Source: a virus
Reading direction: 5' to 3' (one strand)
IMG/VR virus record: IMGVR_UViG_3300032607_000481
Coordinates: 1-23,104 of that record
DNA: 23,104 nt
Shown here one piece after another: positions 1-16,604 of the stretch (the first letter of the stretch is position 1; each line of letters opens with the position of its first letter). The notes beneath the pieces were generated by a model. It saw nothing but the letters and a program-made list of their open reading frames with translations. It searched no databases and was not told the origin of the DNA. A program made the translations under genes and the position numbers.

Positions 1-150
1 AACAACGATATAGGTATGGCTATAAAGTATCTTTGGCGTAACGGACTAAAGAGAGAAGAAGGCATGAGCAAGAAGGAGAAGCAGATTGAAGACATTAACA
101 AGGCTATCTTTTTTCTTAAAGATGAAATCTATCGTTTGGAGAATTTCTAA
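1..150 (+). CDS. DUF3310-like phage protein, C-terminal part
   Basis: The reading frame is open from the left edge and ends at a TAA at 148-150, giving the last 49 residues of a longer protein. The visible part contains a G-M-A-I-K-Y-L-W-R-N-G motif followed by a charged helix, which resembles the DUF3310 (SaV-like) family common in phage nucleotide-metabolism regions. Molecular function of that family is not well established. The stop overlaps the next start by one base (TAATG), so the two are probably translationally coupled. The start lies outside the window. Confidence 0.7.
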   Translation, partial: NNDIGMAIKYLWRNGLKREEGMSKKEKQIEDINKAIFFLKDEIYRLENF

Positions 151-2769: not shown

Positions 2770-3166
2770 ATGTCCTTGGACATTATTTATTATTCTAATC
2801 GTTCCGAAAATACGAAGAAATTCGTAGACAAGCTATCCTGTGATCGCTCGTTCAGGCTCCCCGTAAAATGGGATGCTGGCGTGCCGTTTCTTGTTGGTAA
2901 ACCATACGTTTTGTTTGTTCCAACATATGGTAGTGGTAGCGATAACCATAGTATTCCAAAGTCGGTAAAAGAATTTCTCAACATAAGCTCTAATAGGGAT
3001 CTCCTACGTGGGATTGTGGGCTTCGGGAACACTAACTTTGGAAATAGCTATTGCAAGGCAGCAGACCTGATTGCTGGAAAAACAGGTGTCCCCATTTTAG
3101 GCAAGGTAGAACTTTTGGGTATGCCAGAGGATGTAGAAAACATATTAGAGAGATTACGGGAATTAA

Positions 3167-3180: not shown

Positions 3181-6243
<3,063 letters not shown>

Positions 6244-6244
6244 A

Positions 6245-7477
6245 GTGACGTTCTATCAAAATTTAAACGAGGCGGACTCCGAGATATACAACTTAGTACA
6301 GAAGGAGATGCAAAGACAGAACAACACCCTAGAGATGATTGCAAGCGAGAATTTTGTTCCGATGTCCGTACTTGAGGCCCAGGGTAGCATTCTCACCAAC
6401 AAGTACGCCGAAGGTTATCCAGGCAAGCGTTACTATGGTGGCTGTGAGTTTGTGGATGAAATTGAGGAAATTGCTATAGCTAGAGCTAAGGATCTCTTTA
6501 AAGCAGAATATGCAAACGTTCAGCCTCACTCTGGTTCCACTGCTAATGCTGCAATCCTACATGCAATAGCTAATCCTGGAGATAAAATCTTGGGTATGGA
6601 GTTGGATCATGGCGGACACCTTACTCATGGTATGAAGCTGAACTTTTCAGGTAGGGTCTATAATCCTATTTCTTATGGCGTTGATTCTAAAACTTCCCTA
6701 ATTGACATGGACGAAGTAAGAAGTCTTGCTATACAACATAAGCCAAAAGTTCTAATCGCTGGATGGTCTGCCTATTCTAGGCACTTAGATTTTAAAGCTT
6801 TTAGAGAAATTGCTGATGAAGTTGGGGCAGTACTCTGGGTAGATATGGCACACTTTGCAGGTCTTGTTGCTGCAGAGTTACACCCATCTCCAATTCCTTA
6901 TGCTGATGTTGTCTCTACTACAGTTCATAAGACTTTAGGAGGACCCCGATCAGGAATGATCTTGAGTCGTGACGAGTCTTTGGCTAAAAAACTTAATTCC
7001 GCTGTCTTTCCTGGTCAACAAGGGGGACCGTTAATGCATGTGATTGCTGCAAAAGCTGTTGCATTTAAGTTAGCAGCAACAGAAGAGTTTAAAGATAAAC
7101 AAAAAAGAACCATTAGTGGTGCTAAGATTGTTTCTAAAAAACTTGTTGATGCTGGAATTAATGTTTTAACGGGAGGAACCGACGTTCACTTGCTGATTGC
7201 AGATCTCTCTAACTCTGAATTAAGCGGTATCGATGCAGAAAATCTATTACATGAATCTGGAATCACTGTTAATCGTAATGCGGTTCCCTTTGACCCCAGG
7301 CCAGCAATGGTTACTTCTGGAATCAGAGTGGGCACATCTGCACTAGCTACTAGAGGCTTTTCGGATAAAGAGTTTGAAGAGGTGGGAGAGATCATGGCTA
7401 ATGTTTTAACAAGCTCCATCGACACCTCAGAAGCCAGAGACAGCGTTTTAAAGCTCTGCTCTAGTCCCATATATTAA
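6245..7477 (+). CDS. glyA: Serine hydroxymethyltransferase
   Basis: GlyA converts serine and tetrahydrofolate into glycine and 5,10-methylene-tetrahydrofolate. From GTG 6245 the protein is 410 residues, full length for bacterial SHMT. It shows the N-terminal I-A-S-E-N-F motif, [13 protein letters not shown] at about 54-66, D-M-A-H-F-A-G near 200-206, and the pyridoxal-phosphate lysine K229 in [11 protein letters not shown]. The GTG begins one base after the nrdF stop with a GGAG upstream, so it is an operon member. An in-frame ATG at 6200 lies inside nrdF and is less likely. The product would feed ThyX, encoded at 17792-18484. Confidence 0.94.
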
Positions 7478-14305: not shown

Positions 14306-14336
14306 ACCCCTTAGCTAATAACTAGGGGGTATTTTC
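14306..14336. terminator. Bidirectional intrinsic terminator
   Basis: ACCCCTTAG and CTAGGGGGT pair over nine bases around a seven-base loop (14306-14330). The stem is followed by ATTTTCT on the plus strand and TTTTTCTAT on the minus strand. It separates the tail genes (plus) from the tmRNA 3' end (minus) and can serve both. Confidence 0.8.
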
Positions 14337-14339
14337 TAT

Positions 14340-14663
14340 TGGTGGAGATGTGGGGAGTCGAACCCCAGTCCTAATCTATCGTAACTGTACTTCTACATGT
14401 TTAGGCAACTACCTTGGGAGTCAGAGTCACATTGCCGATGCTCTGATCTTTCAACTATAACCATCTAACTAAGGTATCTTCGTTATTTTAAGAACTAGCT
14501 GCTCAGTGAAGACGCTGCTGGCTAGGTGCTTTAGCTACTTTAGGCTGCTAGAGCGAATTGGGATTTGTCTGCACTTATCCGATTACCCCAAGTTTAAGAG
14601 TTTGGGATGGTCTCTACATGCTTCTCCAATTACGGAATGATCAGTCGAAAACCTTTCATCCCC
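14340..14663 (-). ncRNA. ssrA: tmRNA (transfer-messenger RNA)
   Basis: The gene is a one-piece tmRNA of 324 bases. The 5' end GGGGATG pairs with CATCTCC near the 3' end, followed by A and an encoded CCA. The T arm GACTGGGGTTCGACTCCCC and the GGTTTTCGAC motif near the 5' end are canonical. The tag reading frame lies at 14540-14572: GCA GAC AAA TCC CAA TTC GCT CTA GCA GCC TAA, giving A-D-K-S-Q-F-A-L-A-A, with the A-L-A-A proteolysis end. tmRNA with SmpB rescues stalled ribosomes. I see no smpB here, so the host SmpB would be used. It is flanked by HNH and tail genes. Confidence 0.95.
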
Positions 14664-14676
14664 ATACGCTATTAAG

Positions 14677-14940
14677 TTATGACTCTAGTGTATCATGTTC
14701 TCGTTCAAAAGTCCTAACTTTGTGACAATTAGAGCAAACAACTTCACACTTTGCTACCTCTTGCCAAGCAGACTCAAGGCCATACTTCTTTAAGACACGG
14801 TATACGTTGTCGATTTTTTTGCTTCCTGGCAAATGATCAAACTCTAGGACGTAGTGAGGGAAAAACAATCCACAGTCAGTGCATCCATTGTCTTCTTTAA
14901 ATTGACGGAATATTGGAAGGTACGAAGAGGCTAAAGTCAT
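14677..14940 (-). CDS. HNH-type nuclease, 87 aa
   Basis: The product has a zinc-HNH layout: C20-x-x-C23, D35-H36 (L-E-F-D-H-L) and C69-x-x-C72-H73 (V-C-S-N-C-H-K-V-R-T). Such short proteins are often free-standing homing nucleases. The stop lies 13 bases upstream of the tmRNA 5' end on the same strand, so both could share a transcript. The start ATG at 14940 lies nine bases after a TATACT in the palindrome at 14948-14961. The target is unknown. Confidence 0.8.
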   Translation of the reverse strand: MTLASSYLPIFRQFKEDNGCTDCGLFFPHYVLEFDHLPGSKKIDNVYRVLKKYGLESAWQEVAKCEVVCSNCHKVRTFEREHDTLES

Positions 14941-14961: not shown

Positions 14962-14965
14962 ATTG

Positions 14966-15652
14966 ATGGACTACGTATATACCTGCAGAAGCGGCGACAA
15001 TGAAGAGCTGCGGTATTCAATAAGATCATTAGTAAAGAACCTACCAGAGGTAAACGTATGGATTGTTGGGGATGCCCCATCTTGGTATACGGGAAGTATT
15101 GTTCGTGTTGATCGTCTTAATCAGAAATATAAGACCGTTCGTAATAATCTTGATGTTTTGTCAAAGACAGATGAAATTAACGAACAGTTTGTTCTGATGA
15201 ATGATGACTTTTTTGTTACTAGGCCAATGGACAGCATAGAAGTTTGGCATGGAGGCAGTCTCCTTGAGCGGTACAATCGTCGATTAGACTTAGAGGGGTA
15301 TAGCACATACGCCAAGTATTTAATCGACACTTACAATACTATTAGTCATTTTGGGATAGAAGATCCCCTGTATTACGAGCTTCATACCCCACTACCAATG
15401 ACAAAATTATCGTTATCACACGCGGTAACAAGGCCAGGACTCTGGAGATCTATCACAGCCAATGCAAATGCCATAGGTGGCAAGCAAATGGAGGACGTAA
15501 AAGTCTATGCTGCTGGAACGATGATGTCACGAGCACACAGAGAGCAAGACACGTCTACTTATTTATCTACTGATGATGGGTCTTTTGAAAAGTTATACAA
15601 AGAAAGGCTCCGAGACGAATTCCCAGAGCCTTCCTTATACGAGTCTATTTGA
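14966..15652 (+). CDS. Stealth-like sugar-phosphate transferase protein
   Basis: ATG 14966 is preferred over TTG 14963 because of the -10 spacing. The 228-residue product has the order of motifs of Stealth proteins: V-Y-T-C at the start, D-N-E-E-L-R-Y-S-I-R-S-L at 11-22, V-W-I-V-G-D-A-P-S-W at 31-40, and L-M-N-D-D-F-F at 77-83, where the Asp residues are expected at the active site. Stealth proteins transfer hexose-1-phosphate units in capsule synthesis. The C-terminal part is shorter than in full-length members. It runs tail-to-tail into a glycosyltransferase gene. Confidence 0.72.
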   Translation: MDYVYTCRSGDNEELRYSIRSLVKNLPEVNVWIVGDAPSWYTGSIVRVDRLNQKYKTVRNNLDVLSKTDEINEQFVLMNDDFFVTRPMDSIEVWHGGSLLERYNRRLDLEGYSTYAKYLIDTYNTISHFGIEDPLYYELHTPLPMTKLSLSHAVTRPGLWRSITANANAIGGKQMEDVKVYAAGTMMSRAHREQDTSTYLSTDDGSFEKLYKERLRDEFPEPSLYESI

Positions 15653-16604
15653 TTATACGATAAAACTCTTGCTCTACTACGTCTAGCTGGTCATAGTATG
15701 CATCTGACACTTCTTTAGATCTTTTTATCCCAGCTTTAGAAAACTCATCATACAATTCTTTATCGTCTAGACTTTTAATCGCCTCTACGTATGCTGCAAC
15801 GTCATCATGTTGTGCAAATATTCCTGCATAGGCAAGAGATTCTTTTAATCCTATGGTTGGAGAAGCAATGACAGGAATGCCAGAACAGCAAGCCTCTAGC
15901 GCCACACGCCCCCAGCTCTCGTAAGACGAAGGCATTAGAACTATCCGACTCTTACCATATACCTTTAACACATCTGGTGAATTATCATATAAGGTAACAT
16001 TTGGCAGGTCTTCTGGGTATCCTATTTGTTCCCCATAGGCTCCCATAACACCAATAAACTTTCGTTCAGGAAATATTCTAGCCAACTGCCAAAAAATTTT
16101 GCCACCCTTAGCCTCATTCATATTAATAAGGGTAATGGCCTCACGAGTAGTCTCTACTTTGTATCTGGTCGGATCTGTGGGGGGGTAAAGAATTACAGAC
16201 GGAATATTAAATGGTACGGTCCTTTTAATCCAATTAGAATTAGCAATAGCTAGATCTGCACTACGAGAGTTTATCTTGTTATATGAAAGCTGCTTGTCGT
16301 TGTGGACAAGGTGAACGATTGGCTTTTTATATCTCTGAGACATTTGCACAGCCTTAGACGTATAGTTCAAATGAGTAATGATGATATCTGCCCACTCAAA
16401 ATTATCTCTAACGTCTGGATTAGCGCTGTCAAGTATGGGAATACCCTCATACTCTGTTGCTCCTGGATTTTTTGTTATAACTCGACATTCATGACCTTTT
16501 TCTGCAAGACCATAAAGTATCTGATGAAGCATTGCTTCCGCTCCTGCATTGTGGTTTGGGAAATACCCATGTACATATGCTACAATTTTTAGTGATTTAT
16601 TCAT
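15645..16604 (-). CDS. GT4-type glycosyltransferase
   Basis: The 319-residue product has the GT-B fold layout. It has an N-terminal A-G-A-E-A-M-L acceptor-side loop at 20-26 and a C-terminal nucleotide-sugar site M-P-S-S-Y-E-S-W-G-R-V-A-L-E. That last stretch holds the E-x7-E motif (E229, E237), followed by S-G-I-P-V-I-A-S. It would transfer a sugar from a nucleotide-sugar donor to an unknown acceptor. GAAGGG precedes the ATG. Its 3' end overlaps that of the Stealth-like gene by eight bases in a convergent pair, so antisense contact is possible. Confidence 0.88.
   Translation of the reverse strand: MNKSLKIVAYVHGYFPNHNAGAEAMLHQILYGLAEKGHECRVITKNPGATEYEGIPILDSANPDVRDNFEWADIIITHLNYTSKAVQMSQRYKKPIVHLVHNDKQLSYNKINSRSADLAIANSNWIKRTVPFNIPSVILYPPTDPTRYKVETTREAITLINMNEAKGGKIFWQLARIFPERKFIGVMGAYGEQIGYPEDLPNVTLYDNSPDVLKVYGKSRIVLMPSSYESWGRVALEACCSGIPVIASPTIGLKESLAYAGIFAQHDDVAAYVEAIKSLDDKELYDEFSKAGIKRSKEVSDAYYDQLDVVEQEFYRIIK

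Follow-up and report, generated by a model that had tools for sequence, protein, structure and literature searches.

The 23,104-base IMG/VR virus record analysed here (the window), a phage fragment, carries on its minus strand what appears to be a gene for tmRNA (ssrA), which raises the questions of whether the gene is real, where it came from and what it might do for the virus. ARAGORN called a complete, one-piece tmRNA of 324 nt at nt 14,340–14,663, and the Rfam covariance model RF00023 matched the same interval over its entire length (positions 1–374 of 374) with 119.2 bits (E 2e-46), against a curated cut-off of 47 bits. The initial annotation, which had recognised a complete phage-encoded tmRNA at this position from the letters alone and had named a covariance-model search as a check, is borne out by both programs. 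The RNA begins with GGGGAUG (nt 14,657–14,663) and ends with CAUCUCC (nt 14,344–14,350) followed by ACCA, forming an acceptor stem of seven pairs of which the third is the alanine identity pair G3-U70; the T arm reads UGGGG UUCGACU CCCCA and completes the tRNA-like domain. The terminal CCA is encoded (minus strand, nt 14,340–14,342), as had also been claimed. RNA positions 92–124 (minus strand, nt 14,540–14,572) hold an internal open frame that starts at the resume codon GCA and runs through a degradation signal to a stop (GCA GAC AAA UCC CAA UUC GCU CUA GCA GCC UAA), specifying the tag ADKSQFALAA.

Judged by its terminase, the window probably derives from a Stanwilliamsviridae-like actinophage. 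This protein shows 53.3% identity over 99% to that of Streptomyces phage Phredrick (Stanwilliamsviridae) and up to 85% identity to those of environmental contigs. The window also encodes NrdI, both ribonucleotide reductase subunits, a serine hydroxymethyltransferase (SHMT), a deaminase, WhiB and ThyX, together with seven tRNAs called by ARAGORN. Freshwater studies have employed WhiB to mark actinophages (PMC6802176, PMC9878933), and the label 'freshwater' is used here on the strength of the kind of relatives found and of those two papers rather than of a sample record. The SHMT gene (nt 6200–7477) follows nrdI and the genes of both reductase subunits, and its product is about 70% identical to Microbacteriaceae proteins, a resemblance that is a possible lead to the host and is taken as a lead only.

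Matches to RF00023 above the cut-off were present in two of 80 records with a related terminase (G001, G002), and in one of the eight such relatives with records of at least 70 kb. The tmRNA would therefore seem to be dispensable in the group, with the proviso that the records may be fragments. Further tmRNA contigs were recovered with two DNA patterns, and two of the ten matches to one of these patterns (L270 and L277), which turned out not to be tmRNA, were dropped. Nine contigs are independent of the window (L271, L272, L273, L274, L275, L276, L278, L311 and L330). L083 and L084 agree with the window in tag, gene spacing and compared proteins and were not counted as independent, while L085 and L086 represent the same places as L272 and L274. 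Across the ten loci, the window included, the tmRNAs are 322–334 nt long.

An alignment of these ten phage tmRNAs comprised nine distinct rows, since the tmRNA sequences of L275 and L278 do not differ and were counted once. In the 52-pair structure, which includes the PK1 pseudoknot, 97.2% of cells were paired, 33 of the 52 pairs showed two-sided changes and the covariation score was 0.549; none of 500 shuffles reached any of the five measures. Control structures slid along the alignment gave 32.5–42.3% paired cells and 4–9 pairs with two-sided changes, a comparison that favours the 52-pair structure on paired cells because it was partly derived from the same sequences. The acceptor and T stems are fully paired (100%) in all ten RNAs; acceptor pairs 4, 5 and 6 change on both sides, and G3-U70 is constant in 10/10. 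Both PK1 helices and helices of the later pseudoknot regions also covary, the outer helix of the last pseudoknot, misaligned here, having been left out of the count. In L311 most of PK1 is broken as aligned, which suggests imperfect conservation or a faulty alignment at that point. Compensatory changes alongside a constant G3-U70 point to selection on the RNA itself, and since all ten RNAs share the fold with such changes, chance is far exceeded; the tmRNA gene of the window is confirmed as genuine.

Conservation extends to the sequence upstream of the gene. An extended -10-like element, TGATACACT (minus strand, nt 14,687–14,695), begins 32 nt ahead of the tmRNA 5' end and lies within the 3' end of the upstream gene, which encodes an 87 aa HNH endonuclease (minus strand, nt 14,677–14,940; PHROG HNH families). 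The pattern TGnTAYACT is found at -27 or -32 in all ten loci, while the window has four matches to it over 46,208 strand positions; because the loci are related, its presence in every one is a case of conservation and not of ten independent matches. A scan for a two-hexamer sigma-70 promoter returned none. Beyond the 3' end lies a terminator-like hairpin followed by a U-run (minus strand, nt 14,306–14,330; -15.5 kcal/mol, z -3.74), with an energy that was equalled in none of 200 shuffles. The hairpin is near-palindromic, which explains why the pattern scan listed it on the plus strand only, and it can be used by the tail-like gene encoded there as well. The HNH gene is directly upstream on the same strand, 8–33 nt from the tmRNA, in every locus, and beyond it nine loci have a Stealth-like gene (the window being counted through L083); the tenth locus, L276, breaks off a short way upstream of the tmRNA, and the longer copy L372 was read only as sequence. 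In the window, the stretch at nt 14,963–16,604 specifies a GT4 glycosyltransferase and a Stealth_CR2-like protein that scores below the Pfam threshold; both flank the tmRNA block.

The tag had been described as ending in ALAA, and this holds across the set, all ten phage tags terminating in [FY]ALAA. Those of the nine other contigs are AKYTPEEYALAA (four contigs), AKYNAEYALAA (two), ADKSSYALAA, ASNQSTYALAA and ANDKTKYALAA, and the sequence around the resume codon, AUAAGUGC, is invariant in the alignment (n = 10). In trans-translation an alanine delivered by the tRNA-like domain precedes the encoded residues, and the ten codons of the window would therefore add an 11-residue peptide. The initial annotation regarded ten residues as short for an actinobacterial tag, a view that did not survive a survey of 69 actinomycete loci, and tag length was rejected as a novelty. 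Tags of ten codons or fewer occur in 11 of the 69 (six with ten codons, five with eight), so that a ten-codon tag is ordinary; in a separate set of 58 loci, mostly Microbacteriaceae, the tag has 12 codons in 57 cases and 17 in one. The 69 were drawn from 134 genomes of the class with a match, 29 as automatic best scorers and 40 by hand, the latter including many small genomes or weaker scorers, and for L391 and L402 the second ARAGORN call was used, the first being implausible. The tag of Escherichia coli tmRNA likewise has ten codons, and the two Streptomyces phage tags that were read have 9 and 11. A search of genome contigs with the back-translated window tag (serine as TCN only) gave no exact match in cells, and none of 396 genomes of the phylum matched a more permissive pattern, ADK...ALAA in conjunction with AUAAGUGC; the searches covered TCN serine codons and this one context.

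As tmRNA genes are common attachment sites for phages, the gene might have been a recent copy of a host ssrA, picked up via such a site or created by an assembly chimera. However, BLASTn with the phage tmRNA matched only 20 of 394 actinomycete genomes, and then over no more than about 32–38 nt at the 3' end, several of these matches being to tRNA-Ala. In a 56-row tree, nine freshwater phage rows (L278 was left out) formed one group (support 100/99) apart from the 45 sampled cellular tmRNAs, which made up another (94/88), and two Streptomyces phages formed a group of their own (99/93); long-branch and composition warnings apply to how these clades attach to one another. The same HNH and Stealth-like neighbours recur in independent contigs, and a Pfam scan of 20 window proteins revealed no integrase. 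A recent host copy was accordingly rejected as having next to no chance of being correct. The restriction of BLASTn matches to the 3' end, together with the separate phage clade, indicates an old phage gene instead.

The reading we favour, with a probability of about 0.8, is that the gene is a vertically kept phage ssrA performing canonical trans-translation with the alanyl-tRNA synthetase (AlaRS), SmpB and proteases of the host, a function that we infer from what the sequence provides: full tmRNA anatomy, a conserved fold, an ALAA tag, a promoter-like element and a terminator-like hairpin. In the infected actinobacterium, transcription would start from the -10-like element in the HNH 3' end, RNase P would trim the 5' end, and host AlaRS would recognise G3-U70 and charge the RNA with alanine. 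Bound by host SmpB, the phage tmRNA would then serve ribosomes stalled on broken mRNAs: the unfinished protein, once tagged, would be passed to host proteases, and the freed ribosome would return to phage translation. The role proposed in the initial annotation, the freeing of stalled ribosomes during infection, is plausible. No SmpB was detected in nine phage records with an E-value limit of 1, which is loose given that the control search matched 12 of 14 genomes, including two from archaea, and host SmpB would therefore be needed. Counting against this explanation are the scarcity of the gene among the terminase relatives and the finding that 134 of 148 sampled actinomycetes carry an ssrA of their own at a stringent threshold.

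It is unlikely, by comparison with canonical rescue, that the RNA acts as a decoy or inhibitor which titrates host SmpB or AlaRS, or absorbs an RNA-cutting defence of the host, with tagging beside the point. There are precedents for such a role: according to PMC4131195, phage DS6A carries little beyond the tRNA-like domain, and a molecule of this kind is a strong inhibitor of tmRNA, perhaps because it titrates SmpB; the tRNA set of BE1 phages could, as PMC5764925 suggests, counter a tRNA-based degradation defence. A pure decoy would not need an intact mRNA-like part, yet here that part is complete, with resume context, open tag, stop and ALAA all kept, and the helices of the pseudoknot regions are maintained by compensatory changes. 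It is very unlikely that the tmRNA is a passenger of little benefit in a mobile cassette, moving between phages jointly with a homing-type HNH gene. The invariable upstream HNH gene and the patchy presence of tmRNA among relatives would suit such a cassette, as would the correlation between HNH and tmRNA identities (r 0.41, Mantel p 0.007). The selection seen on the RNA itself argues otherwise, as does the existence of an HNH relative without tmRNA (L082) and of a tmRNA, that of Phredrick, which is not beside an HNH gene, and the Stealth-like neighbour common to the loci fits common descent as well as movement. A distinctly unlikely variant is that HNH and tmRNA are one selected transferable unit of freshwater actinophages, in which the tmRNA promoter lies in or next to the HNH 3' end, the nuclease would cut rival phages (or the host ssrA) lacking the block, and the phage tmRNA would then assume the rescue of ribosomes in infected cells, adding its own tag. 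In another relative without tmRNA (L087, nt 1593–2062), a distant HNH gene is directly followed by tRNA-Arg(TCT) and adjoins a Stealth-like gene; an HNH gene and an RNA gene may thus be a recurring pair.

The tmRNA of the window is real, yet tmRNA genes of actinophages are already known in related viruses. The presence of such genes in a few actinophage groups, as stated in the initial annotation, was confirmed by published reports for BE1 Streptomyces phages and cluster C mycobacteriophages. BE1 phages have one tmRNA each (PMC5764925), as do Phredrick and Spelly (PMC10793280), the BE-cluster helper phages MindFlayer and MulchMansion also have one (PMC10690885), and by 2014 eight mycobacteriophages, DS6A and Bacillus phage G had been listed with a tmRNA (PMC4131195). 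The Stanwilliamsviridae Streptomyces phages Samisti12 and Phredrick resemble the window in having a related terminase, a single tmRNA per record over the cut-off, an ALAA-type tag and G3-U70. Their tmRNAs are shorter (269–270 nt versus 324), with the tags ANSKFAFALAA and ANSNFALAA, and fall on long branches apart from the freshwater group in the tree; unlike that of the window, the Phredrick gene sits within a large tRNA array with no HNH gene adjoining. Another comparison is with the cluster C mycobacteriophages, to which Bxz1 belongs. Like the window, cluster C phages (Bxz1, Momo, McGee) are actinophages with a tmRNA (PMC4131195, PMC4472892, PMC9583779), but they are described as myoviruses with 31–34 tRNAs (PMC4472892, PMC9583779). 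The ssrA of Actinomycetes shares RF00023, an ALAA-type tag and the overall plan with the phage copies, whereas its full-length matches are longer (about 356–401 nt versus 322–334 nt) and the tree places the phage tmRNAs outside the cellular clade.

In the open-licence PMC literature no report of tmRNA in freshwater actinophages was found. The present data add ten well-supported phage tmRNAs that represent one old freshwater actinophage lineage, in which the start signal is conserved and the HNH neighbour is constant; this argues that selection has maintained the gene and that it is no stray copy from a host. The set can also be used in comparative tests of how a phage benefits from a ribosome-rescue RNA of its own.

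Two observations concern permuted tmRNAs. A 33-nt match to Synechococcus cyanophage S-CRM01 (HQ615693.1) was rejected as a related one-piece tmRNA: the phage has a permuted, two-piece tmRNA of the cyanobacterial type (L177, nt 2782–3091; RF04321, 82.5 bits, cut-off 47), which is absent from the annotated features listed there. Since the match is to the acceptor piece of that RNA, the simplest account of the identity is conservation of the acceptor and T arm. Among 74 viral-contig loci (L279–L352), some possibly host contamination or prophage flanks, ARAGORN called a tmRNA in 58, and 52 of these were permuted, mostly with ANDN-type tags such as ANDNFAPVDYALAA.
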